The notes under the pieces were generated by a model that ran no database searches, was not told the origin of the DNA, and worked only from the letters and a program-made list of their open reading frames with translations. From Coriobacteriaceae bacterium (GTDB lineage: Bacteria; Actinomycetota; Coriobacteriia; Coriobacteriales; Coriobacteriaceae): 18,380 nucleotides of DNA. Positions 82-18,380 of this stretch are shown one piece after another. Position numbers and translations under genes: made by a program. The stretch's first letter is position 1. Every line of letters starts with the position of its first letter. The stretch is from NCBI GenBank assembly GCA_902362275.1, contig CABIWB010000003.1, positions 127,116 to 145,495 of the forward strand, read 5' to 3'.

Positions 82-1110
<1,029 letters not shown>

Positions 1111-2202
1111 TTACACCTCGCCTCCCTTCTTGGAATCCTTGCGCGTACGGGACGTCTCAGGGGCGTTCTTGAGGAACTCGGGGTCACCGGAGTAGTGGCA
1201 CGCAGAGTAATGACCAGACTCGGTGACAACGCGCTCGGGGCGCTGCTTGCGGCACTTGTCCGTCGCATAGGGGCAGCGAGGAGAGAAGACGCAGCCCTCG
1301 GGCAGGTTCATGAGCGAAGGCGGGTTGCCGTGAATCGGCGTAAGCGGCTTCTTCTCTTCGATGGCCTGCTCCGGGATGGAGCGGATAAGGCCCCAGGTGT
1401 AGGGGTGGCGGCTCTCGTAGAAGATTTCCTCAGCAGTACCGAACTCGACGGGACGGCCGGCGTACATAACCATGATCTTGTCGGCCATGTCGGCGACGAC
1501 GCCCAGGTCATGGGTAATCATGATGATGGCGTTGCCGTTCTTCTCCTGCATTTCCTGCATAAGCTCGATAATCTGAGCCTGGATGGTAACGTCCAGAGCA
1601 GTCGTGGGCTCGTCGGCAATCAGAATATCGGGATCGCAGGCAAGAGCCATAGCAATCATGACGCGCTGACGCATACCGCCAGAGAACTGGTGCGGATACT
1701 CATTGACGCGCTTCTCGGGCTCGGGAATACCAACGAGGTCCAGAAGCTCGGTGGCGCGCTTGAGCGCCTCCTGCTTGGAGTAGCCACGGTGCAGACGAAG
1801 GCCCTCGCCTACCTGCTTGCCGATCTTATAGACCGGGTTCAAGGAGGTCATAGGATCCTGGAAGATCATCGCGATATCGTTGCCGCGAATGTGCTGCATC
1901 TCTTCCTCGGTCATTTCGAGGATCGAACGACCGCGATAGCGAACGTCGCCGCCCTCGATCTTTCCCGGAGGCATCGAGATGAGGCCCATGATAGTCATGG
2001 CGGTCACGGACTTACCGGAGCCGGACTCACCGACGACGCCCAGGGTCTCGCCGCGATCGAGCGTGTAGGAGACACCGTCGACAGCGCGAACGACGCCATC
2101 CTCGGTGTGGAAATACATCTTAAGGTCATCGACCTCGAGCAGATGCTGGCCCTCGGGAACCGGCTGGTCCTTCAGGTCCACATAGTTCTTGTTCTTCTTC
2201 AT
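1111..2202 (-). CDS. oppD: Oligopeptide ABC transporter ATP-binding protein OppD
   Basis: This is the partner ATPase of OppF in the peptide importer. The 363-residue product carries Walker A GESGSGKS (58-65), signature FSGGMRQ (173-179), Walker B IADEP (195-199) and THDLG (230-234). The C-terminal extension has cysteines at about 304, 310, 317 and 335 (C-x5-C-x6-C-x17-C), matching the peptide-importer ATPase tail thought to hold a [4Fe-4S] cluster. A basic, lysine- and arginine-rich stretch closes the protein. The start lies 2 bp after the oppC stop, with AAGGA 9 nt upstream, and its own stop abuts the oppF start. Assignment to the OppD/DppD family is firm; the exact peptide preference is not visible. 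Confidence 0.94.
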
Positions 2203-2204
2203 CC

Positions 2205-3140
2205 TTATGCGTCCTTCATCTTGACGTCGAGGGCGTCGCGCAGACCATCACCCAGCAGGGTGAAGGCGAGCACCGTCGAGAGAATTGCCAGACCTGGCAT
2301 GATCATCATCCAGGGAGCGGTCAGAAGATACTGCTGACCGTCCTGAATCATGGAGCCCCACGAAGGCGTAGGCGGAATAACGCCCATGCCGAGGAAGGAC
2401 AGAGCGGACTCGGTCAGAATGGCGCCACCAATGTTCATGGTCGCATAGACCACGATGGAGGCGACGGAGTTCGGGAAGATGTGACGCACGACGATACGAG
2501 CATCAGATGCACCCATCGCGCGCGCAGCGTCAACATAGTCGTTTTCCTTGACCGTCAGGATCGCGGATCGGAAGACGCGCGCAATCGAAGGCCAGCCGAG
2601 AATACCGATGGCGATAAAGACGTTCTGAAGACCACGGCCGATAACGGCGATCATGGCGACAACGAACAGCACGTAGGGGAACGCCAGGAAGATGTCCGCA
2701 CAGCGCATGATGATCGTATCCCAGATGCCGCCGTAGAAACCGGCCAGAGCACCCATGACCAGACCGATCAGCGTGGAGATCGCGGTGGCCATAATGCCGA
2801 CGGACAGTGAAACGCGCGCACCGTAGATAACACGGACGAGAATGTCACGACCAAGGGCGTCGGTGCCAAACGGGTGCTCTGCACACGGAGCCAGCAGCGA
2901 CGTCTGGGCCATGGTGGTCGAGTCGGAAGCCGTCGGCGAACCGAGCCAGGGCTTAGCCCACAGATCTGCGGTCAGGGCAACCACAACGACGATGATGATC
3001 CAGCAGACACCGATAACGGCGAGCTTGTTCTTACGAAGACGCTTAAAAGCGTCGCCCCACAGCGTGCGGGACTTGGCGGGAGCAGATGCGGCCTTGGTGG
3101 CGGTAGCCTGCTCCTGAGACTGAGAATCAGTTTCCTGCAT
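2205..3140 (-). CDS. oppC: Oligopeptide ABC transporter permease OppC
   Basis: This is the second membrane permease of the peptide importer, 311 residues. A polar N-terminal tail of about 30 residues precedes a first hydrophobic helix (about 40-60). The characteristic family stretch HPFGTDALGRD (89-99) and several further helices follow. The cytoplasmic EAA loop that contacts the ATPases is DAARAMGASDARI (about 204-216), followed by the HIFPN stretch usual in OppC/DppC. The end reads LGDGLRDALD, typical of the family. A GGGAGG ribosome site sits 8 nt before the ATG, in the 14-bp gap after oppB. The gene lies between oppB and oppD in the classic permease-permease-ATPase-ATPase order. Confidence 0.94.
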   Translation of the reverse strand: MQETDSQSQEQATATKAASAPAKSRTLWGDAFKRLRKNKLAVIGVCWIIIVVVVALTADLWAKPWLGSPTASDSTTMAQTSLLAPCAEHPFGTDALGRDILVRVIYGARVSLSVGIMATAISTLIGLVMGALAGFYGGIWDTIIMRCADIFLAFPYVLFVVAMIAVIGRGLQNVFIAIGILGWPSIARVFRSAILTVKENDYVDAARAMGASDARIVVRHIFPNSVASIVVYATMNIGGAILTESALSFLGMGVIPPTPSWGSMIQDGQQYLLTAPWMMIMPGLAILSTVLAFTLLGDGLRDALDVKMKDA

Positions 3141-3154
3141 GAGACGTACCTCCC

Positions 3155-4192
3155 TTAGGCCTTATCCGACGGACCGCCAAGGCGGATGCGCGGGTCGAGG
3201 AATGCATAGCTGATGTCGACGAGCAGGTTGATCACCATGACGACGACGACGATGAGCGTAACGCCGCCCATAACGATGGGCCAGTCACGCATGCTAATGG
3301 CGCGATAGACCTCATAGCCGATACCGGGCCAGTTAAAGACCGTCTCGGTCAGGATGGCGCCCGAAAGCATGCCGCCAAAGTCGACACCAATATAGGTAAC
3401 GACGGGGATGAGTGCATTCTTAAGCGCATGCTTGATGATGATCGCGCGATTGGAGAGACCCTTGGCCTTTGCCGTGCGAATGTAATCCTGGTTCATGACG
3501 TCAAGCAGCTGCGAGCGCATAATGCGGGCGGCATAAGCGGTCGAAACCGAAGCCAGCGTAATGGTCGGAAGCACATAGTGCATCCAATCCTGATACTGAG
3601 AGCTGGAACCACCGGCGCCCGAGATCGGCATGGAGAATGCACCGCCCGTGGCGTCCTTGAGAATGACGCCAAAAAACAGCTGCAGCAACATACCGAGCCA
3701 GAAAGCCGGGACGGCAACGAGAATCGACGTGGTGAGCGTTACCAAAATATCCCAGAAGGAATAACGCTTAACCGCCGAAATGATGCCCGCACCGATACCC
3801 ATGATTGCCTCGAGCACGATGGCGCACGCGGCAAGTTTGACCGTATACGGATACTTCTGAGCAAAGATTTCCGTAACCGGCAGCTTGCGCTGATACGAAT
3901 TGCCCAGATCGCCATGAAGCAGGCCGTTCATGTAATACAAGTAACGGTCCACGAGCGACGTTTGAACGGGGTCGCCGTTCTCGTCAAGGATCGCGTTGCC
4001 GTCCTCGTCCGACTGGACCAGGTGATAGCGGACGCGAAGCTGAAGCTCCACCTCGGGGGACAGAGCCTTGTCTCCACCGATCAGCTTGATCGGATCTCCC
4101 GGCACGATATTCTGGAGGGCGAACAGAATCAGCGTAACGCCCAAAAACACCGGGATGAACTGAAGCACACGTTTAACGATGTACTTACCCAT
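3155..4192 (-). CDS. oppB: Oligopeptide ABC transporter permease OppB
   Basis: This is the first membrane permease, 345 residues. It has an N-terminal helix (about 9-30) ending in the family motif IVPGDP, and the GDLGNSY stretch (94-100). The EAA loop is RTAKAKGLSNRAIIIKHAL (239-257), and the TETVFNWPGIG motif (282-292) is also present. The segment at about 61-76 is acidic and Asp/Gly/Asn-rich (DEDGN...DENGD), inserted in the external region between the first two helices. It resembles a beta-hairpin or Ca-binding-like loop, but I do not assign a function to it. The start has GGGGAG about 4 nt upstream. It is separated from oppA by a 156-bp spacer that holds a stem-loop, so its expression may be lower than that of oppA. 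Confidence 0.94.
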   Translation of the reverse strand: MGKYIVKRVLQFIPVFLGVTLILFALQNIVPGDPIKLIGGDKALSPEVELQLRVRYHLVQSDEDGNAILDENGDPVQTSLVDRYLYYMNGLLHGDLGNSYQRKLPVTEIFAQKYPYTVKLAACAIVLEAIMGIGAGIISAVKRYSFWDILVTLTTSILVAVPAFWLGMLLQLFFGVILKDATGGAFSMPISGAGGSSSQYQDWMHYVLPTITLASVSTAYAARIMRSQLLDVMNQDYIRTAKAKGLSNRAIIIKHALKNALIPVVTYIGVDFGGMLSGAILTETVFNWPGIGYEVYRAISMRDWPIVMGGVTLIVVVVMVINLLVDISYAFLDPRIRLGGPSDKA

Positions 4193-4222
4193 ACCACTCC
4201 CCTATCTAGGGATTAACCTAAA

Positions 4223-4252
4223 TGGGATGCCGATCGCCAGACCGGCATCCCA
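4223..4252 (-). terminator. Intercistronic stem-loop between oppA and oppB
   Basis: A 10-bp perfect inverted repeat (TGGGATGCCG / CGGCATCCCA) with a 10-nt loop lies in the oppA-oppB spacer. On the minus strand it is followed only by CATTTAGGTTAAT, not a clean U-tract. It is therefore more likely a partial terminator or a 3'-end mRNA stabiliser than a full stop. This position is common for setting binding protein above permease levels; that role is inference. Confidence 0.6.
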
Positions 4253-4348
4253 AAATTACCATCAGCCAGTTTACCCCAGGTTAGGGAGAACTGTATGTTT
4301 CCCATGAGGTCTACGTAAATACTTGACCCTCACGGAAGCTGCAAACTC

Positions 4349-6025
4349 TTAGGCGAGCTCAGCGGTACCCAGCTCGGCATGCTTCTGCGGATCGACATAG
4401 AGGTGCTTGATGCGATCGGAGCCGACGATGGTGTGCGTGTAGAACATCACCGGGATGACCGGGCAGTCGGCAGCGACCATAGCGTCGGCCTCCTGCATCT
4501 TAGCGACGCGCTCATCGTCGTCAACAATGGTACGAGCCTCGTCGACCTTGGCGTCGAACTCGGGGTTGTTGTAACCAGAGCGGTTATCGCCACCGAGGGA
4601 ATCGGAGTGGAACAGCGGATACAGGAAGTTGTCCATGATCGGGTAGTCGGCAATCCAACCCATACGACCGAACTGATAGTTAAAGTTCTGATACTGCTCG
4701 AGCAGGGCAGACCACTCAGGGGTATCAGAAGTAGCGGTAACGCCCACCTTGGCGAGGTCGCCGATGATGGACTCCATGATCTCCTTGTGGCCACCGTCCT
4801 GGTTGTAGGACAGAGTCACGTTAATGCCACGATCGCCGTTAGCGTCAGCGGGAGCAACCTTGTCGAGGTACTCGTTAGCCTTGTCGACGTCGTAGGCGCA
4901 GAACTCCCATGCGCCCTCCTTGTAGCCATCGATACCCGGAGGAACAATGCCGTCGGCGGGGGTACGGGTACCCTTGAAGATAGTCTTGCAGATGGCCTCA
5001 CGGTTGATGGCCAGGGAGATACCCCTACGCAGGTCGGCGTTGTTGAACGGCTCGGCCGTGTTGTTGCAGGTCAGATAGTAGGTGGAAGGCTCGGAGCCGA
5101 GCAGCATACGCTCGCCGTCACCCATGGTGTAGCCGTCCTTGGACACGCCGCGATCCTTCTTGGCGGCGTCGATCTGAGCAACGGGAACGTCGCAGACATC
5201 GAGGTTACCGGCCTGGAACTCCTTGTAAGCGGTCTCCATGTCCTTGATGACCTGGAAGTGGATGCCATCAATCTTGGCCTTGTCGCCATAGTAATCGTCG
5301 AACTTCTTGAGGTTGATCTCCTGACCATCCTCCCACTTGCCGTCCATCATGAACGGGCCGTTACCGACCGGTGCAAGGTAGAAGCTCTTGGCATCGGACT
5401 CGGCACACTCGGGAACCGGGGCCAGAGCCGGGTGAGAGACGACGAAGGGGAAGTCGGCGTAAGCGGAAGACAGCTTGACGACGAGGGTCTCATCGTCGGG
5501 GCAAGTAACACCGCTGAGCTCGGTAGCGTTACCGGCAAGCAGGTCGTCATAGCCCTCGACCATGGAAAGGTGATAGGAGACCTCGGAAGGGCCGTACTCG
5601 GTAGCGATGGCCGACTTGGTGTTGACCAGACGCTCCCAACCGAGCTTGAAGGACTTGGAGGTAACGTCGTCACCGTTGTGGAACTTGGCCTTCTTGATCT
5701 TGAAGGTAAACTCGGTGGCATCGTCGTTGGCCTCAAAGGACTCGCAAGCCAGCGGAACGATCTCGCCCTTCTCGGCGTCATAAGAGGTCAGAGAATCAAA
5801 GAGCTGGTACTCGACCTGAGTGCCCTGGTCCTCCTGGACATTGTAGGGGTCGATGCAGACCGGGTTGTTGATGTAGAAGTTCAGCGTCGAACCGGACTCA
5901 GAACCGGAAGCGTCGCCGCCCTTCTTGCCACATGCGGCAAGAAAAGCCATGGAGCTCGCAGCAAGGGTGCCGCCGACAAAGGCGCGACGACCCATAACGG
6001 GCTGGTGGAACATAGAATCAGCCAT
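4349..6025 (-). CDS. oppA: Oligopeptide-binding lipoprotein OppA (SBP family 5)
   Basis: This is the extracellular peptide-binding lipoprotein that delivers substrate to OppBC. I chose the ATG at 6025 because AAGGAGG lies 5 nt upstream; this gives 558 residues, normal for the family. The N-terminus has a twin-arginine-like motif (GRRAFVGG, 12-19), a hydrophobic stretch and a lipobox FLAAC with Cys32 as the lipidation site. A Gly/Ser linker then leads into the binding fold. Family 5 hallmarks are visible: the FHNGDDVTSKSF segment, the FNNADLRRGISLAINRE segment, and a C-terminal DYPIMDNFLYPLF region. It heads the transporter cluster, separated from oppB by a stem-loop. A longer in-frame start at 6073 would place 16 uncharacteristic residues before the leader and is rejected. 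Confidence 0.92.
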   Translation of the reverse strand: MADSMFHQPVMGRRAFVGGTLAASSMAFLAACGKKGGDASGSESGSTLNFYINNPVCIDPYNVQEDQGTQVEYQLFDSLTSYDAEKGEIVPLACESFEANDDATEFTFKIKKAKFHNGDDVTSKSFKLGWERLVNTKSAIATEYGPSEVSYHLSMVEGYDDLLAGNATELSGVTCPDDETLVVKLSSAYADFPFVVSHPALAPVPECAESDAKSFYLAPVGNGPFMMDGKWEDGQEINLKKFDDYYGDKAKIDGIHFQVIKDMETAYKEFQAGNLDVCDVPVAQIDAAKKDRGVSKDGYTMGDGERMLLGSEPSTYYLTCNNTAEPFNNADLRRGISLAINREAICKTIFKGTRTPADGIVPPGIDGYKEGAWEFCAYDVDKANEYLDKVAPADANGDRGINVTLSYNQDGGHKEIMESIIGDLAKVGVTATSDTPEWSALLEQYQNFNYQFGRMGWIADYPIMDNFLYPLFHSDSLGGDNRSGYNNPEFDAKVDEARTIVDDDERVAKMQEADAMVAADCPVIPVMFYTHTIVGSDRIKHLYVDPQKHAELGTAELA

Positions 6026-6267
6026 GCCATCCTCCTTATGAGATAGGACAAAGAAATGTTCAGTCGGACACATATCGAGACAATCCGATCCGAACCATCA
6101 AAACGCCGCCCGTTGCTATGGCTGGTTATGCACAACAGACCAACGTTTCTTAATACAGTAGCGCATTTTATGCACGATTTGGGGCTAATTCCGGTCAACG
6201 GTCGAGAATTTCTTTAGTTGGGCGAAGTATGTGGGGATATTTTGACTCTGTTACAAATATGTAAACA

Positions 6268-6681: not shown

Positions 6682-6709
6682 GGGGGTTGTCCGATTGTGG
6701 ACAACCCCC
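6682..6709 (-). terminator. Rho-independent terminator after gpmI
   Basis: An 11-bp perfect GC-rich inverted repeat (GGGGGTTGTCC / GGACAACCCCC) with a 6-nt loop lies about 28 bp past the gpmI stop. On the minus strand it is followed by TTTGGTATTTCT, an imperfect U-tract. It ends the pgk-tpiA-gpmI unit. Confidence 0.8.
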
Positions 6710-6737
6710 CTTACTAGAAAACGGTATTTGTTTTCTA

Positions 6738-8291
6738 TTAGGCCTCGGTGGCGAGCACGCGGCCCGTCATCTCGGCGGAAGGCTCCAGACCAGCCATGGT
6801 GAGCATAGTCGGGGCGATATCGGAAAGACGACCGTCCTCGATACCGGTGAGCTGTGCCTTCTCATCAACGATAATGAACGGCACGCGATTGGTGGTGTGA
6901 GCCGTAAACGGATGCTTAGAACCGTCGGAAGCAACGTCAAACATGTGATCGGCGTTGCCGTGGTCGGCGGTAATCAGCGCAAAGCCGCCCTTGGCGAGAA
7001 TCGCCGGGACAACCTTGGACAGGGCATCGTCAACAGCCTCGACGGCCTTAACGGCAGCGTCGAAGACACCGGTGTGACCAACCATGTCGCAGTTCGCGAA
7101 GTTCACGATATAGAAATCAGCGCGATCCTCGTTGATGGCGGCGACAAGCTTCTCGGTAACCTCAGGAGCGCTCATCTCGGGCTGCAGATCGTAGGTAGCG
7201 ACCTTGGGGGAAGCGACGAGCACGCGCTCCTCGCCCTCCTTGGGCTCCTCGATGCCGCCGTTGAGGAAGAACGTCACGTGGGCGTACTTCTCGGTCTCGG
7301 CGGTGTGCAGCTGCTTCAGGCCATTGGCGGCGATAACGTCGGCCAGGACGTTCTCGGGGAACGTCTTGGGGAAGGCGACCTCGACGTCAAACGTTGGATC
7401 GTACTCAGTCATCGTCACAAAGTGCGAAAGCTTAATCTGCTCGCGCTCAAAGCCGTCGAACTCCTTGTCCGTGAACACGCGGGTCATCTGACGAGCGCGG
7501 TCGGGACGGAAGTTGAAGAAGATGGCCGCGTCGCCCTCGTGGATGCCCTCGTTGTGGGCAACGAAGGGCTCGACAAACTCGTCGCCGCGCGGATCCTTCT
7601 CGTAGTAGGCCTTGATACCGGCCACGGGGTCGGTATCGGCATCGGACGCGTTGACCATGACGTCGTAGGCGCGCTGGATACGCTCCCAACGATTATCGCG
7701 GTCCATGGCCCAATAACGGCCCGAGACGGTGGCAACGCGAGCGTCGCAACCGGTCTCCTCGGAGATCTTGGCCAGGAAGGCGCAGAACTCACTCATGTAA
7801 CCGGCACCGGACTGCGGGTCAACGTCGCGGCCATCCATGAAGGCGTGGACGCGAACGGTCTTGACACCATGCTCGGCAGCCATCTTGACCAGAGCCTCGA
7901 CGTGGTTCATGTGAGAATGAACACCGCCAGGGCTCATAAGGCCCATGAGGTGGAGAGTCTTGCCGTCAGCCTTGACGTCGTCCATAGCCTTGACGAAGAC
8001 CTCGTTCTTGGCGATGGAGCCATCCTTGATAGCGTTGTTGATGCGCGAAAGCTCCTGGAACACGATGCGGCCGGCACCGATGTTGAGGTGACCCACCTCG
8101 GAGTTGCCCATCTGACCGTCGGGAAGGCCCACGTCCTCGCCCGAAGCGCCGAGCGTAGTGTGGGGATACTTCTCGTACAGGCTATCAAGGAAGGGCGTCT
8201 TGGCAGCGGCGACGGCGTTCTCGCCATCGGCCGGAGCAAGGCCGCAGCCGTCCATGATGATCAGGAGTGCAGGAAGATGACGCTGTGCCAT
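6738..8291 (-). CDS. gpmI: 2,3-bisphosphoglycerate-independent phosphoglycerate mutase
   Basis: This cytoplasmic glycolytic enzyme interconverts 3- and 2-phosphoglycerate without the bisphosphate cofactor, using two metal ions. The 517-residue product begins with the metal-site MDGCGL (Asp14). It has the nucleophile in MGNSEVGHLNIGAGR (Ser64), the phosphatase-like ITADHGNADHMFD motif near residue 450, and HTTNRVPFI. Length and motif order match the family. The start is 5 bp after the tpiA stop with only a weak AGG upstream, so translation probably depends on coupling. It closes the pgk-tpiA-gpmI unit and is followed by a terminator. Confidence 0.96.
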   Translation of the reverse strand: MAQRHLPALLIIMDGCGLAPADGENAVAAAKTPFLDSLYEKYPHTTLGASGEDVGLPDGQMGNSEVGHLNIGAGRIVFQELSRINNAIKDGSIAKNEVFVKAMDDVKADGKTLHLMGLMSPGGVHSHMNHVEALVKMAAEHGVKTVRVHAFMDGRDVDPQSGAGYMSEFCAFLAKISEETGCDARVATVSGRYWAMDRDNRWERIQRAYDVMVNASDADTDPVAGIKAYYEKDPRGDEFVEPFVAHNEGIHEGDAAIFFNFRPDRARQMTRVFTDKEFDGFEREQIKLSHFVTMTEYDPTFDVEVAFPKTFPENVLADVIAANGLKQLHTAETEKYAHVTFFLNGGIEEPKEGEERVLVASPKVATYDLQPEMSAPEVTEKLVAAINEDRADFYIVNFANCDMVGHTGVFDAAVKAVEAVDDALSKVVPAILAKGGFALITADHGNADHMFDVASDGSKHPFTAHTTNRVPFIIVDEKAQLTGIEDGRLSDIAPTMLTMAGLEPSAEMTGRVLATEA

Positions 8292-8296
8292 ATGTC

Positions 8297-9064
8297 CTAC
8301 TCGCCTGCCTTGACGACCATAGAGGCGAAGTCGGCAGCCTTGAGCGAAGCGCCGCCCACGAGGGCGCCGTCAACGTCGGGCTTGGCGACGAGCTCGGCAA
8401 TGTTGCCGGGCTTGGCGGAACCACCGTACAGGACGCGGATGCCGTCGGCGAGCTCCTCGCCAAACATCTCCTTGAGGGTCTCACGGATAGCGCCGCAGAC
8501 CTCCTGAGCGTCCTCAGCAGTAGCGGTCTTGCCGGTGCCGATGGCCCAGATGGGCTCGTAGGCGACGACGACCTGCTTGGGGCAGGTGATCTCAAGACCA
8601 GCAAGGCCAGCCTTGACCTGGTTCACGACGTGCTCGACATAGGTGCCGGCCTCGCGGACCTCGAGGGACTCGCCGCAGCAGAAGACGGGAACAAGACCGG
8701 CGGCAACGAGGGCCTTGGCCTTCTTGTTCTGGTCCTCGTCGGTCTCGTGGAAGTAGTCACGACGCTCGGAGTGGCCAATGATGCAGTAGGTGCAGCCAGC
8801 AGACTTGAGCATGTCGCAAGAGGACTCACCGGTGAAGGCACCCTTGGCTTCCCAGTACACATTCTGTGCACCGAGGGCGATGGGGGCAGCCTGAATGCGG
8901 TCATGAACCGTGGTGATGTCGATGGTCGGAGGGCAGACGAGCACCTCGACGCCAGCCGGAACCTCGGGAAGAGCCTGAGCCAGCTCGTCGGCGAGCTTGG
9001 CGGCCTCGGCGACGTCGTTGTTCATCTTCCAGTTACCAGCGATAAGAAGGGTGCGATTAGGCAT
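8297..9064 (-). CDS. tpiA: Triosephosphate isomerase
   Basis: This enzyme interconverts dihydroxyacetone phosphate and glyceraldehyde 3-phosphate. The start at 9064 gives 255 residues, the usual length, and begins directly with the family N-terminus leading to AGNWKMN (Asn11, Lys13). The electrophile His98 is in IIGHSERR, the catalytic Glu170 in AYEPIWAIGTGK, and the phosphate loop is LYGGSAKPGN (212-221). The ATG overlaps the pgk stop by 8 bp (ATGCCTAA), so the two genes are translationally coupled. A longer frame start at 9127 would run into pgk and adds unrelated residues. All catalytic residues are present. Confidence 0.97.
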   Translation of the reverse strand: MPNRTLLIAGNWKMNNDVAEAAKLADELAQALPEVPAGVEVLVCPPTIDITTVHDRIQAAPIALGAQNVYWEAKGAFTGESSCDMLKSAGCTYCIIGHSERRDYFHETDEDQNKKAKALVAAGLVPVFCCGESLEVREAGTYVEHVVNQVKAGLAGLEITCPKQVVVAYEPIWAIGTGKTATAEDAQEVCGAIRETLKEMFGEELADGIRVLYGGSAKPGNIAELVAKPDVDGALVGGASLKAADFASMVVKAGE

Positions 9065-13564: not shown

Positions 13565-14251
13565 TTACGCCTCAAGTGCAGCCTTGAACCAACTCGTAAT
13601 ACTCGTGGGGTGCGTGATGGCGGTGCCGACGACAACGGCCCAGGCGCCAGCATCGATCGCGGCGCGAGCCTCCTCGGGCGTGTGCACGCGGCCCTCGCAG
13701 ATGATGGGAAGACCGGGGAATTCCTCAGTCGCCTGACGCAGGAGCGGCAGGTCGGGGCCATCGGCCATGGTGCAGTCGATGGCGGCGACGCCGTGAGAAA
13801 GCGTGGTGGATACCAGGTCAAAGCCCATATCAACAGCACGGCGAATGTCCTCGATGGTGGCACAATCCGCCATCAGGAGCACACCCTCCTCGTGCAGCGG
13901 GCGGAAGGTATCCTCGACCGTCTTGCCATCGGGGCGCGGACGATCGGTGGCGTCGATCGCCACGATATCGGCACCGGCAGCAACGCAGGCGCGAGCGTGA
14001 CGCAGCGTCGGCGTGATGTAAACGCCCTCGTGCCCATCCTTCCACAGGCCGATGACGGGAACCTCACAGCGACCCTTAATGGCGGCAATGTCGGCAAGGC
14101 CCTGGCACCGAATGGCGGCGGCGCCGCCGAGCTCGCAAGCGCGAGACATTTGCGCCATGGTCTCGGGCGTACGAAGCGGCTCGCCCATATACGCCTGAAC
14201 GCTCACAACGAGCTTGCCCTTCAGGGACTGGATCAAAGGATCAACGGTCAT
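13565..14251 (-). CDS. nanE: N-acylglucosamine-6-phosphate 2-epimerase (ManNAc-6-P epimerase)
   Basis: NanE converts N-acetylmannosamine 6-phosphate to N-acetylglucosamine 6-phosphate, which joins amino-sugar metabolism. The start at 14251, with GAAAGG about 11 nt upstream, gives 228 residues, the usual size for this TIM-barrel family. Visible hallmarks are the N-terminal LVVSVQA, PVIGLWK with Lys71, YITPTL (79-83), the signature DATDRPRP (100-107), CEGRVHTPEEA (185-195) and VVVGTAITHP (206-215). The longer in-frame start at 14290 would fall inside the adjacent stem-loop. It is the last gene of the nan-type cluster, after nanK, and is followed by a terminator-like hairpin. Confidence 0.93.
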   Translation of the reverse strand: MTVDPLIQSLKGKLVVSVQAYMGEPLRTPETMAQMSRACELGGAAAIRCQGLADIAAIKGRCEVPVIGLWKDGHEGVYITPTLRHARACVAAGADIVAIDATDRPRPDGKTVEDTFRPLHEEGVLLMADCATIEDIRRAVDMGFDLVSTTLSHGVAAIDCTMADGPDLPLLRQATEEFPGLPIICEGRVHTPEEARAAIDAGAWAVVVGTAITHPTSITSWFKAALEA

Positions 14252-14276
14252 GTTCGACTCAACCTTTCTCAAAACA

Positions 14277-14374
14277 GCCTTCTGAGACACCGCACCTTGA
14301 CGTTCAAACCGTCGCTCGCGTACCGAAGTACGCTTCGCTCCTCTTTCACGTCAATCTGCGGCACCTCAGAAGGC
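14277..14374 (-). ncRNA. Long structured intergenic element between nanK and nanE
   Basis: A 98-nt imperfect inverted repeat fills the nanK-nanE spacer. Outer arms GCCTTCTGAG / CTCAGAAGGC (14277-14286, 14365-14374) are perfect. The next 17 positions pair CCGCA and TGACGT blocks. The three mismatches after the outer arms become G-U wobbles only in minus-strand RNA. The apex is a 6-bp stem GCGTAC / GTACGC closed by a cUUCGg tetraloop on the minus strand, flanked by GA-type purines. It starts 17 nt after the nanK stop and ends 8 nt before the nanE ribosome site. I do not recognise it as a named RNA class. Confidence 0.55.
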
Positions 14375-14391: not shown

Positions 14392-15357
14392 TTACTTCAA
14401 CGATGCAAGAAGGTGTTCGGCGGCACCGATGAGCGGAGCATCGCCCTCCAGAGAACCGATGAGGATCGGTGTGTTCTGAAGCGGATCGAGCGCCTGGCTG
14501 GCATAGCCCTCGTGCACCGAATCCTTCCACGTCTGCGAACGCCAATCGGGACCTTGGTGAATCACGCCGCCCGAAAGCACGATGACCTCAGGGTCCAGGA
14601 TGTTAGCGAGCGAGCCCAAGCTGGCCCCCAGCGCAAAGCCGGCGTCATGGATGACCTCGGTCGCCTTTGCGTCGCCCGCACGGCACAGGTCGTTCACATC
14701 GCGACCGACCGAAGGACGGCTGGGGTCGACGCGGCCAAAACGTTCATCGTACATTCGACCAATGGAAGTGCCCGAAGCAACCGACTCCAGATGGCCGGAA
14801 CGCCCACAGGCGCAGGGAATGCCGGTGGCAGCCGAGCACTCGATGTGGCCCATATGACCGGCAGCACCATGGAAGCCCTGCATCACGCGGCCGTTCTCGA
14901 CATATGCGCCGCCGATGCCCGTGCCGATGCCCAGGCACAAGACGGAGAACTTGCCCTTGCCGACGCCCCAGTGGGCCTCGCCCAGAGCATGAGCCTGCAC
15001 GTCGCCCACAACGGCAACGGGAAGACCGAGGTCCTCGCGCAGACGCGGCCCCAACTGAACGCCGGACCAGCCGGGCATGATCTCGTTGGCATACGCGATG
15101 GCGCCCGTCTTGGGATCGACGACGCCGGCGGCACCGATACCGACGCCAAGGACCTCGACATCGGGATTCGCCTCGAGAGCAGCCTTGATGGACGCCTCGA
15201 TACGCTGGAAGACGGCCTCGCCGCCCTCCTGGGCCTCGGTAGGAACCTCGGCCTCAAAAACGGGATGGGGCACACTACCGTCAGCCGGGTACTCCATGAT
15301 GGCGGTCGCGATCTTAGTTCCGCCGATATCGACAGAGCAGACGTACTTGTTCTCCAT
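14392..15357 (-). CDS. nanK: ROK-family sugar kinase, probable N-acetylmannosamine kinase
   Basis: It would phosphorylate ManNAc to ManNAc-6-phosphate for the neighbouring NanE. The 321-residue ROK protein has the phosphate motif DIGGTK (10-15), the catalytic Asp119 in GDVQAHALGE, GIGTGIGG (143-150), and a zinc-type motif CACGRSGHLES (182-192). In that motif the usual third Cys is His. The sugar-contact segment reads AGHMGH (166-171) rather than the common ROK AGExGH; as I recall, E. coli NanK also has AGHxGH. AAGGAG lies 6 nt before the ATG but sits inside a tight 5-bp hairpin with an upstream TCTCC. The neighbourhood with nanE and a NanA-type aldolase favours ManNAc over glucose as substrate. 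Confidence 0.85.
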   Translation of the reverse strand: MENKYVCSVDIGGTKIATAIMEYPADGSVPHPVFEAEVPTEAQEGGEAVFQRIEASIKAALEANPDVEVLGVGIGAAGVVDPKTGAIAYANEIMPGWSGVQLGPRLREDLGLPVAVVGDVQAHALGEAHWGVGKGKFSVLCLGIGTGIGGAYVENGRVMQGFHGAAGHMGHIECSAATGIPCACGRSGHLESVASGTSIGRMYDERFGRVDPSRPSVGRDVNDLCRAGDAKATEVIHDAGFALGASLGSLANILDPEVIVLSGGVIHQGPDWRSQTWKDSVHEGYASQALDPLQNTPILIGSLEGDAPLIGAAEHLLASLK

Positions 15358-15426: not shown

Positions 15427-15532
15427 AAAGGTTTTCCAGGTGCCCGAGATCGCCGAGAAACCGTGTGACCATTGACCTAATGGGTCATGGCCGCACGGTT
15501 GAACGGCGAGGTCGGGTGCCTGGGAAAGCTTT
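15427..15532. repeat. Long imperfect inverted repeat between the aldolase gene and nanK
   Basis: Two 29-nt arms (15427-15455 and 15504-15532) match at 23 of 29 positions. Inside them is a perfect 7-bp pairing AACCGTG / CACGGTT, and then TGACC-ATT against AATGGGTCA at the apex. The whole forms a stem-loop of about 106 nt. The right arm includes the last bases of the aldolase gene and most of its stop codon. Several mismatches become wobble pairs on plus-strand RNA. No terminal direct repeats or encoded protein suggest a mobile element. Confidence 0.55.
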
Positions 15533-16451
15533 AAAGGAGACCGTTGTCCTGAAGGACCTTCTTAATCGCCTCAACGTTCTCGCCGGTCATGGCCTTCACC
15601 GGGCGCGGCATGGTCGGGCTGTCGAAGATGCCCATAAGGTTCATAGCGGTCTTGAAGGCGCCGACGCCACCGGCATAGCCCTGGACGCCCGAGGTGACAT
15701 CCCAGATGTGCGAAATCTCATTGAGGCGATCCTGCTCGGCCTTGACGGTAGCCCAGTCACCAGCCTGAGCGGCCTTCCACTGACGCACGTAGCCCTCGGG
15801 CTCAACGTTGGCGAGACCCGGGACGGAACCGTCGGCGCCACCGAGATAGGCGCCGTCGACAACAACCTCATGACCGGTGAGGATGCTCATCGGATGGCCG
15901 TTCTTCTCGTTCTCCTGAACGAGGTAGCGGAACGAGATGTCATCACCCGAGGAATCCTTGACGCCAGCAAGGACGCCCTCGGCGCCGAGCTTGGCAAGGA
16001 GCTTCCAGGGGAGCTTGGTGTGAACGCAGACGGGAATGTCATAGGCGAAGATGGGCAGGTCGAGCTCCTCGTGCAGGATACGGAAGTGCTCCTCGACCTC
16101 GGTCATGCCCTGCAGGGCATAGAACGGGCAGGTGGCGACGAGGGCATCGGCGCCCAGCTCCTGAGCGACCTTGCCGTGCTCGATCATGCGCTCGGTCTCG
16201 GTATCGATGATGCCGACCAGAACGGGCACACGGTGGTCGACGATACGGACGGCCTCGGCGATAATCTGGCGACGACGCTCGTCGGTGGAGAAGACGACTT
16301 CGCCCGAGGAGCCCAGGAAGAACAGGCCATCGACGCCGGCATCGATCATGCGGTTAATGCTGCGCTCAAAGGAGGCAACGTCGAGCTGGTGATCTTCGGT
16401 ATCGGGAACAACGACGGGAGGGATAACGCCGGTGAATTTCTGAGTTGCCAC
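15531..16451 (-). CDS. DapA/NanA-family aldolase, probable N-acetylneuraminate lyase
   Basis: A class I pyruvate-dependent aldolase that, by context, would split sialic acid into ManNAc and pyruvate. I chose the GTG at 16451 because AAGGAG lies 6 nt upstream; this gives 306 residues, normal for the family. The Schiff-base Lys165 is in GVKDSSGD, the catalytic Tyr138 in FAYDIP, and the pyruvate carboxylate site is GSSGE (47-51). CPFYALQ (108-114) resembles the PFYY of sialate lyases. However, the substrate segment reads GHEV where E. coli NanA has GYDE. The N-terminal DGLFFLGSSGE is also close to YagE-type 2-keto-3-deoxygluconate aldolases. Family is certain, substrate probable only. It lies 68 bp after the esterase-like gene. 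Confidence 0.82.
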   Translation of the reverse strand: MATQKFTGVIPPVVVPDTEDHQLDVASFERSINRMIDAGVDGLFFLGSSGEVVFSTDERRRQIIAEAVRIVDHRVPVLVGIIDTETERMIEHGKVAQELGADALVATCPFYALQGMTEVEEHFRILHEELDLPIFAYDIPVCVHTKLPWKLLAKLGAEGVLAGVKDSSGDDISFRYLVQENEKNGHPMSILTGHEVVVDGAYLGGADGSVPGLANVEPEGYVRQWKAAQAGDWATVKAEQDRLNEISHIWDVTSGVQGYAGGVGAFKTAMNLMGIFDSPTMPRPVKAMTGENVEAIKKVLQDNGLL

Positions 16452-16519
16452 AAGAATCTCCTTAGTTGTCTGGCGGGCGACCCTGTGCCACCCACTCTTG
16501 TTGGCAGTGTCCAGGCCGT

Positions 16520-17371
16520 CTAGGCCAAAGAACACGAGTAGAACGTTTGGTTAAAGAAGTCGACGACTTCGTTTTCGAACGCATTGATGCGCTCGTGAGC
16601 GTATTTGGCATAGATGATATGCCTCCGGTCACACTCAAGACCGTTGAATACGGCAAACTGGCCCTTGGGGTCGCTCGCGGCATCCATGAGCGATGTGCCC
16701 ATGAGCACCGATCCGCGCACCCGAGACGACAGCGCCTCGAGGCCGCTAGGAAGCGGATTGGCAACCGCCGTGCAGGCGAGGCCCCGCTCGTCCAGAGCAG
16801 AAACCGCCAGCGCGACTCCGCCACCAAGACCCTCGCCCCATGCAAAGATGCGGTCGGGGTCCATGCCATCAAGATTGCGCGCCACCTTCGCCAGCGCGCA
16901 ACCCCAACGGACGCGCTCGACAAAAGCGGGCGAAGAAATCCCCCGCCGCAGGTCGTCCGCACCAGCAACATCGTCATCCAGCGCGAGGACGGCATACCCC
17001 AGGGCGGCAAATCTCGTCATGTGATGCCAGCCGCGCACAGGCCGATCGATGTCGTGGAACATCAGGCACAGCGGCACGCGCTCAGATACTCGGGCACGAC
17101 CGACAGGCTCGATCAAACGAGCGTGAATCGCATCGTCACCGAGCTCAAAGGAGACCTCCGAGTAACGGGCGCAGGGGTTAACAAAGTCAATCGCCGTAAT
17201 GGCCAGGCCTTGAATCTCAAGATTCAAAGCGCATGTCTCTAAATCAGAAACATCTGCTTGGACATCACCGCGCCAGTCCCGATATTCTGCGAGCCTTGAC
17301 GAAACCGTTCCAGGAATTCCCACGAGTCCGGGGACAATCAGCTCGTCAACATTGCTCTCGCACTTAGACAT
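16520..17371 (-). CDS. CE7 acetyl-esterase-like protein lacking the catalytic serine (probable pseudoenzyme)
   Basis: A shortened paralogue (283 residues) of the CE7-type esterase encoded just upstream. The C-terminal halves align clearly: GTSLMDAASDPKGQFAVFN against GTGTADIVCPPATQFAVYN, and YAHE against FGHEE. Asp230 and His259 therefore match the catalytic Asp and His. The nucleophile elbow reads WGEGLGGG, with Gly181 (codon GGT) where the partner has Ser in GASQGG. The HGYPG oxyanion segment is HDIDR, the PGQGG loop is absent, and about 45 residues between elbow and Asp are missing. The frame is intact with a good ribosome site, and the start overlaps the upstream gene by 8 bp (ATGTCTAA). 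Esterase activity is unlikely; a regulatory or binding role is possible. Confidence 0.8.
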   Translation of the reverse strand: MSKCESNVDELIVPGLVGIPGTVSSRLAEYRDWRGDVQADVSDLETCALNLEIQGLAITAIDFVNPCARYSEVSFELGDDAIHARLIEPVGRARVSERVPLCLMFHDIDRPVRGWHHMTRFAALGYAVLALDDDVAGADDLRRGISSPAFVERVRWGCALAKVARNLDGMDPDRIFAWGEGLGGGVALAVSALDERGLACTAVANPLPSGLEALSSRVRGSVLMGTSLMDAASDPKGQFAVFNGLECDRRHIIYAKYAHERINAFENEVVDFFNQTFYSCSLA

Positions 17372-18341
17372 GAGCCTCCCCTCCCTTGCAGAAAAACGGA
17401 ATGATCAGATCGTCAAAATCCTGAATCTCCTCGTGGCCAAAGCCTTCAAAGAACTCATGACGCTTTTCGCAGGTCAGGTTGTTATAGACCGCAAACTGCG
17501 TCGCTGGCGGACAGACGATATCGGCTGTGCCAGTGCCAAACAGCACGGGGCATTTGACCATAGGGGCAAAGTTCTTTGAATCGAAGTACGCCAGCTTGGC
17601 ATAGGCTTCGTCAATACGAGTCGAGTCCTCGTCAAACCAGCGAGACCAATAGCGCAGGCCCTCGTAGGCAATGTCGTCGGCATCCAAATCCCAGACTAGG
17701 CGGAAATCTGACAGGAAGGGATAGAGGATGGCGGCACGATTGATAAGCTCGCTGTTAAGCGCACAGGTCGCAATGCCCAAACCGCCGCCCTGCGACGCGC
17801 CGTTCACAAACACACGCGCAAGATCGATGCCCTCGAGCTCGCGAACGATGCGGCACAGGATGCGAATATCTTGGTGCAAGCGGACATAGTAGAGGTTGGC
17901 CGGGTCGCCGTCGATACCGACGACGATATGACCGGCAACCGTTGTGCCCTCAAATCCACCAATGTCCTCGGAGGGACCTCCTTGGCCGGGGCAGTCGAGG
18001 GCGATGAGTGCCATGCCCATACCCGCAAACGACGCCTGCTCAAACCAGCTGCGGCTTGCACCCGGATACCCATGGAACTGAAGTACCAATGGCACGGGCT
18101 CGTCCGAGACGGGTTTAAGGTACTTGGCATGCAGGCGCGCGCCACACATGCCGGTATACCAGAGGTCGAAAAGCTGGCAGGTCGCGGCATCGGCGACCGA
18201 TGCCGTCTCGATCGCATAGTCAAGCCCGACGGCGTCGGCCTCGGCCATGCGATCCTTCCAAAAGAGATCGAAATCTGATGGACGGGGCATGGCGCCTCGA
18301 TATTCATCAAATTGATGTTGTAGCTCCTGAGCACTTGGCAT
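17364..18341 (-). CDS. CE7-family acetyl esterase (acetyl xylan esterase / cephalosporin C deacetylase type)
   Basis: An alpha/beta-hydrolase that removes acetyl groups from sugars. The ATG at 18341 gives 325 residues, the usual length; an in-frame TTG at 18356 is possible but lacks space for a ribosome site. GAAAGG lies about 15 nt upstream. The oxyanion segment is HGYPG (90-94), the nucleophile Ser183 is in GASQGG, Asp274 is in GTADIV and His303 in GHEE. The CE7 signature RGQ reads PGQ here (118-120). There is no signal peptide, so it acts in the cytoplasm on imported sugars. Next to sialate-type genes, O-acetylated sialic acid or acetylated amino sugars are plausible substrates, but this is inference. 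It is the first gene of the visible cluster; its promoter lies beyond the window. Confidence 0.88.
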   Translation of the reverse strand: MPSAQELQHQFDEYRGAMPRPSDFDLFWKDRMAEADAVGLDYAIETASVADAATCQLFDLWYTGMCGARLHAKYLKPVSDEPVPLVLQFHGYPGASRSWFEQASFAGMGMALIALDCPGQGGPSEDIGGFEGTTVAGHIVVGIDGDPANLYYVRLHQDIRILCRIVRELEGIDLARVFVNGASQGGGLGIATCALNSELINRAAILYPFLSDFRLVWDLDADDIAYEGLRYWSRWFDEDSTRIDEAYAKLAYFDSKNFAPMVKCPVLFGTGTADIVCPPATQFAVYNNLTCEKRHEFFEGFGHEEIQDFDDLIIPFFCKGGEAHV

Positions 18342-18380
18342 GGCTCGTGAACCCAACCTTTCGAAATCGCAACGGAGGTG

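Follow-up and report, generated by a model that had tools for sequence, protein, structure and literature searches.

Gene organization of the locus

The window, the whole 18,380-nucleotide stretch of Coriobacteriaceae DNA analysed here, carries on its minus strand a gene for an intact esterase of family CE7, an overlapping gene for a CE7 paralogue whose nucleophilic serine is missing (hereafter the partner), and the following genes of a nan-type operon. The features are:

17364..18356, minus strand: intact CE7 (AXE1) esterase, Ser188-Asp279-His308; frame open to the window's end, start uncertain
17375..17385, minus strand: GGGAGGGGAGG, a ribosome-site-like run before the partner ATG (sequence)
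17364..17371, minus strand: 8-bp stop/start overlap ATGTCTAA between CE7 and partner (sequence)
16520..17371, minus strand: Ser-less CE7 paralogue (partner), 283 aa (open reading frame, Pfam AXE1, BLASTP, residue inspection)
17009..17059, minus strand: FHD..RPVRGWHHMTRF motif (residues 105-121), in which D107, H117 and R120 replace CE7 G96, E106 and S109 (alignment)
16817..16840, minus strand: elbow WGEGLGGG (residues 178-185), with E180-G181 where the CE7 has A-S (alignment)
16829..16831, minus strand: Gly181 codon GGT at the nucleophile position (sequence)
16682..16684, minus strand: Asp230, equivalent of the catalytic Asp (alignment)
16574..16597, minus strand: HERINAFE (residues 259-266), with His259 equivalent to the catalytic His and R261, N263 and E266 switched relative to the CE7 (alignment)
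15531..16535, minus strand: DHDPS-family lyase, NanA-like by context, start uncertain (profile match, locus comparison)
14392..15357, minus strand: ROK-family kinase, NanK-like by context (profile match, locus comparison)
13565..14290, minus strand: NanE, ManNAc-6-P epimerase family (profile match)

The partner frame (16520-17371, minus strand) begins with ATG, and its product matches Pfam AXE1 (PF05448) with an E-value of 3.7e-24 and 85.5 bits against a cut-off of 21. BLASTP aligns it to the neighbouring CE7 with 27% identity over 252 columns (E 9e-24). In Pfam and NCBIfam, no curated family besides AXE1 exceeded its cut-off for the window partner, and no DNA-binding domain matched.

Relatives of the window lyase and ROK kinase come after the CE7 gene in all 51 operon loci compared (19 named Collinsella contigs, 30 loci of a second family, f3, and the loci of genomes G052 and G017), and 50 of them also have a NanE relative. 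Oligopeptide-type ABC genes lie upstream of the CE7 in 46; in the other five (L033, L040, L108, L110, L119) the sequence ends before that region. Searches by tblastn with the window partner detect a partner in 40 of the 51 loci, while the remaining 11 hold partners too divergent for tblastn that a profile detects. NanE exceeds its NCBIfam cut-off and the lyase and kinase fall below all of theirs, so the naming of sialic acid as the sugar draws on genomic context. The lyase (15531-16535, minus strand) reaches the cut-off of neither the dapA model nor the N-acetylneuraminate lyase model.

The two genes are tightly arranged wherever they are separate. All 26 unfused pairs (25 loci and the window) have an in-frame start codon within -13 to +6 nt of the CE7 stop, and the 8-bp overlap is identical in 21 of the 22 genus copies, the G017 genes having none.

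Two further observations concern the rest of the window. A second oligopeptide-type ABC transporter (OppBCDF and a binding protein) occupies 82-6073 on the minus strand, downstream of a glycolytic cluster; an OppBCDF-like set lies directly upstream of the CE7 in relatives and may be paralogous to it. Very long antisense frames at 343-2337, 4379-6046 and 6687-8507 (plus strand) stand opposite known genes; they probably arise, as is common in GC-rich coding DNA, without indicating genes.

Loss of the catalytic serine and its surroundings

The CE7 elbow GASQGG, with Ser188 encoded by TCG, corresponds to GEGLGG in the partner. A preliminary description of this DNA had placed Gly181 (GGT) of WGEGLGGG at the nucleophile position, HDI in place of the oxyanion motif HGY, and an 8-bp overlap with the active paralogue, and had considered the PGQ loop and cap region missing. 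All of these readings hold. HDI occupies residues 106-108, the overlap is ATGTCTAA, and alignment to the CE7 shows neither the PGQGG stretch, which the CE7s of these loci retain, nor the long insertion between elbow and Asp. From the description in the accessible part of PMC6209228, these two gaps in the partner are assigned to the beta-interface loop and three-helix insertion of CE7 enzymes. The equivalents of the catalytic Asp and His, placed through alignments, were correctly described as kept in the window (Asp230, His259); in the wider family they are not universal.

The same description had remarked that GGT is one transition from the serine codon AGT, a point that carries no weight. Across the 22 Collinsella copies (the window and L001-L021), the Gly181 codon is GGC in 17 and GGT in five, and the CE7 serine is TCG in 21 and TCT in one. 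The mixture of glycine codons, together with the TCG and TCT serine codons of the CE7, indicates that the serine was not lost recently. A recent Ser-to-Gly transition is ruled out by the varying glycine codon and by the presence of Gly across families.

Family-wide substitutions

A joint alignment set 72 partners (33 loci and 39 fused database proteins) against 71 CE7s. Locus L108 gave no CE7 row, and P0168, which carries both GASQGA and GEGLGG, was left out, so that 39 of the 40 fused proteins were used. The nucleophile column is Gly in 72/72 partners and Ser in 71/71 CE7s. Three database protein searches, of which the best 120 of 286, 303 and 575 proteins were taken, extend this result: Gly stands at the elbow in 130 of 131 close partners among the matches listed. 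The exception, P0114, is missing a segment that contains the elbow; in P0055, Val replaces the Glu ahead of the Gly. Each may be a real variant or an assembly fault. The Ser-less form is thus conserved beside an intact CE7, and no inspected homologue keeps the serine.

Besides S188/G181, nine further positions are switched between CE7s and partners. Given as CE7 residue, partner residue and count among the 72 partners, they are G96 to D107 (68 D and 2 E), S103 to G114 (67), E106 to H117 (69), S109 to R120 (71), A187 to E180 (69 E and 3 D), Y212 to N205 (65), E310 to R261 (72), Q312 to N263 (71) and D315 to E266 (72). Among the CE7s most of the corresponding residues hardly vary, but A187 (54/71) and Q312 (53/71) do. 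If the HGY tyrosine is taken as Tyr95 and residues are counted from it with no gaps, CE7 E106 corresponds to Glu104 of PbAcE, a substrate-site residue according to the available portion of PMC6209228. When the partners were thinned at 70% identity to 50 rows, G181, R120, R261 and E266 remained in all 50, H117 in 49 and D107 in 48.

The old triad residues vary more than the most conserved of the new ones, with His in 69/72 partners and Asp in 67/72. In genus g99 (L124-L126), His has become Tyr and Asp is lost while ERxNxFE is kept, which indicates that the old dyad is dispensable there. Together, the fixed switches and the absent serine indicate a site that was rebuilt and then held, and they rule out the usual serine hydrolysis.

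Distribution and co-inheritance

Scored at E 1e-3, the pair is inherited as a unit in the Collinsella genus: 22 of 43 genomes have both genes, 21 have neither, and none has only one. The preliminary description had asked whether the gene is absent at random in sister strains, and this pattern answers that it is not. NanE occurs in 33 of the 43 genomes and in 12 of the 21 that lack the pair (in G022 as a partial match), so the pair is missing as a unit and not merely along with the operon. G033, a genome 72% complete, has the pair, and NanE was not found in it. CE7 and partner are therefore accessory genes, present or absent together. The 19 named contigs with the pair all belong to Collinsella, 11 of them to C. 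aerofaciens.

Among 396 genomes sampled from the class, a profile built from six partners matched 58 at E 1e-3, comprising 52 with CE7/partner pairs and six weak matches (G128, G131, G156, G236, G266, G378) that were excluded from the pairs. Four of these six were inspected (L130-L133) and have Ser-type elbows; the other two are G128 and G131. A CE7 profile matched 61 of the same 396 genomes, namely the same 52 (E <= 3.3e-140) and nine weak ones (E 5.5e-7 to 9e-4). Since both profiles return the same 52 strong genomes, there are 52 pairs, and no strong orphan CE7 or orphan partner was seen in the 396 sampled genomes. By family, 22 pairs fall in f1 (21 in the Collinsella genus, and G052) and 30 in f3. 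From the presence of Collinsella, we take f1 to be Coriobacteriaceae and the class to be Coriobacteriia.

Beyond the close Collinsella group, all 32 loci (30 of f3, G052 and G017) encode a partner domain with the Gly elbow, and 31 also encode a GxSQGG CE7; in L108 the CE7 is partial at a contig end. In a sample of 396 genomes from the phylum, 126 had matches, class members included. No Ser-less partner was found in the 15 loci from outside the class that were inspected, most of them among the highest-ranked matches: 14 have GxSQGG elbows, and L154 has GTSFAGG with the Ser still there. Among fused database proteins, P0159 carries the source name Atopobiaceae, and P0169 is labelled as an Oscillospiraceae MAG. 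These are the two fused homologues to which a source gives a protein name, and both are called simply "acetylxylan esterase".

Selection and age

Pairwise Nei-Gojobori dN/dS was computed for the window and L001-L021, with 223 of 231 pairs having dS > 0.05. The median for the partner, 0.186, is about four times that of the CE7 (0.049), so that the partner is under correspondingly weaker constraint. As a ratio of means, residues 1-66 of the partner give 0.247 and residues 67-275 give 0.147. Three motif windows, picked after inspection of the alignment, give 0.007 (residues 99-132), 0.014 (173-195) and 0.029 (251-272). Overall, then, constraint is weaker on the partner than on the CE7, but the partner's former active-site motifs are nearly frozen. 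Two points raised earlier find support here: dN/dS, at 0.19, lies well away from 1, and the maintained frame extends to all 22 genus copies, which are open with none broken.

In a quick tree (LG+G4, 74 rows), for which the program warned of joined long branches, the partners fall into one clade (SH-aLRT 100) and the CE7s into another (99). A mirror-tree comparison over 32 pairs gives r 0.78, with 0 of 999 permutations as high, a correlation to which species history partly contributes. Arg102 is present in 71/71 CE7s of these bacteria and Trp104 in 67/71, and each recurs in 70/72 partners. The 14 CE7s examined from other parts of the phylum all lack both residues, which fits a duplication within this CE7 lineage. 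As judged from alignment and tree, the partner is a conserved family that forms one ancient clade of CE7 paralogues.

Fusions and structural models

In seven of the 32 loci, CE7 and partner form a single polypeptide: L102, L105, L109 and L110 of genus g123 and L106-L108 of genus g89. Genus g123 also holds four separate pairs (L115, L116, L119, L123), which makes the fusion or fission younger than the duplication; it perhaps occurred more than once. At least 40 fused CE7-partner proteins are found among the database matches listed, retrieved with a fused profile and fused queries that would not detect fusions to other domains. P0170, a CE7 with PF02153 and no partner motif, was removed from this set. 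Several of the fused chains have a short linker.

For one fused chain, AlphaFold2 placed the two domains confidently, with pLDDT 93.9 and pTM 0.93. The structure alignment (A4) comprised 36 of the 40 fused proteins. Loosely tethered domains of such sizes would be expected to give a pTM of about 0.6. The predicted arrangement of the fused chain may differ from that of the separate window proteins. Modelled alone, the window partner reaches pLDDT 76.3 and pTM 0.74 with residues 1-57 mostly poor; in the underlying alignment, the N-terminal part seems to be matched to CE7 stretches of fused rows.

Proposed role of the partner

The association between CE7 and partner is well supported by inference. 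The most probable reading, to which we assign a probability of roughly 0.72, is that the partner would serve as a dedicated non-esterase subunit of the adjacent CE7 deacetylase in a sialic-acid operon. Of the three roles offered in the preliminary description (a pseudoenzyme subunit, a binding or allosteric partner, a sugar sensor), the first appears best supported by these comparisons.

That the partner is instead a new type of enzyme, with non-serine chemistry in a rebuilt crevice (D107, H117, R120, E180, D230, H259, R261), for example on a lactone, anomer or anhydro form of sialic acid, is unlikely. The nearly frozen motif windows, the charged residues fixed at former active-site motifs and the mostly retained His and Asp would all suit such an enzyme. 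However, L124-L126 lose both His and Asp and keep ERxNxFE, the strict pairing with the CE7 and the fusions would not be expected of an independent enzyme, and for the window partner AXE1 is the only curated Pfam or NCBIfam family above cut-off.

A soluble sensor or regulator that reports sialic acid somewhere other than at the CE7 is improbable. Although Arg/His-rich motifs and the nan-type operon would be a natural setting for one, the gene's presence matches that of the CE7 exactly, with 12 genus genomes that have NanE and neither gene of the pair. It is also found fused to the CE7, in a search that used fused queries, and matches no DNA-binding domain in Pfam or NCBIfam.

The overlapping genes and co-inheritance are compatible with a copy that acts only as a chaperone or assembly factor for CE7 folding or solubility, its crevice having no role, as is an overall constraint below that of the CE7. 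Such a function is quite improbable, since the strongest constraint lies at the former active-site motifs and not across the fold. Finally, the loss of the serine, loop and insertion and the faster evolution might suggest a decaying duplicate, which is ruled out to a negligible residual chance by frames that are intact in the 22 genus copies and in the inspected f3 and G052 loci, a dN/dS of 0.19, fixed substitutions identical in two families, and a serine never seen; with the conserved pairing, this bears out the earlier view that the gene is not decay debris.

A dedicated non-esterase subunit would act as follows. CE7 enzymes mostly form hexameric rings whose contacts involve the beta-interface loop, the N-terminal extension and the three-helix insertion, as described in the accessible part of PMC6209228. 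The window CE7 and partner would be produced together and pack into one complex, in which the CE7, retaining its own oligomer modules, would form the catalytic core and perform hydrolysis. With the beta-interface loop and three-helix insertion missing, the partner probably does not take a simple CE7 seat in the ring. Having neither modules nor nucleophile, it would dock on the CE7 as a structural or regulatory extra lobe, a placement suggested by the short linker of fused chains. Its crevice, lined with Arg, His and acidic residues, may hold or gate sialic acid, possibly O-acetylated, or a pathway metabolite; our guess is that Asp, His, Arg and Glu there would suit an acidic sugar or a phosphate. 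The operon's lyase, kinase and epimerase would then receive the deacetylated sugar. A more specific picture can be offered only tentatively: a two-component CE7 of six catalytic chains and Ser-less lobes, whose rebuilt, charged crevice would bind either sialic acid or a metabolite further along the pathway, gating the substrate or presenting it to the CE7.

Relation to known systems

There are known cases of a live enzyme served by a dead paralogue, and in prozyme-type pairs the latter activates or completes the former. The partner is likewise a dead paralogue co-inherited with a live one. Prozyme-type partners have another fold and belong to another pathway, and they activate or complete the live enzyme, whereas any such effect of the partner is putative.

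Axe of Streptococcus pneumoniae, which we take to belong to family CE7, is like the window CE7 an esterase in a nan region. It is an intracellular esterase with a Ser-His-Asp triad, encoded beside sialic-acid genes (PMC5352144, PMC3658417, as available in part). Compared by description alone, it differs in that the accessible parts of both articles mention no Ser-less partner. In vitro, the pneumococcal enzyme released acetate from mucin and helped the sialidase; it had no measured role in growth or mucin use, colonisation or virulence, according to the available text of PMC5352144. A 2013 review reports an Axe-like match in C. aerofaciens (34%, 108/314) and, in its accessible part, does not mention the partner (PMC3658417).

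Also among the closest known systems is the CE7 acetyl xylan esterase/cephalosporin C deacetylase family itself (AXE1; PDB 6fkx, 3fcy, 1l7a, 1vlq, 6agq). From these enzymes, the partner differs in having no Ser, HDx for HGY, neither the beta-interface loop nor the three-helix insertion, and nine further fixed substitutions. The loop-truncation variant of TM0077 (PDB 5hfn) was made in the laboratory by shortening a CE7 that is active, whereas the partner is a natural Ser-less paralogue. In the literature searched, part of it available as excerpts, we found no description of a Ser-less protein dedicated to the CE7 of Coriobacterial nan operons.

Biological significance

Pfam alone, through AXE1, would label the partner an esterase. 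The data show instead a protein in which serine esterase activity is not possible and which is kept beside such an esterase, and this suggests an enzyme made of two parts, one of them dead yet required. If the tentative picture of a two-component CE7 is true, the partner would amount to an allosteric pseudo-esterase subunit of natural origin, joined to its enzyme as one chain in some lineages. The family offers a setting in which to test how an inactive paralogue turns into a permanent subunit of an enzyme; in living relatives the two genes occur both overlapping and fused. The operon as a whole probably serves the use of host sialic acid by common human gut bacteria.
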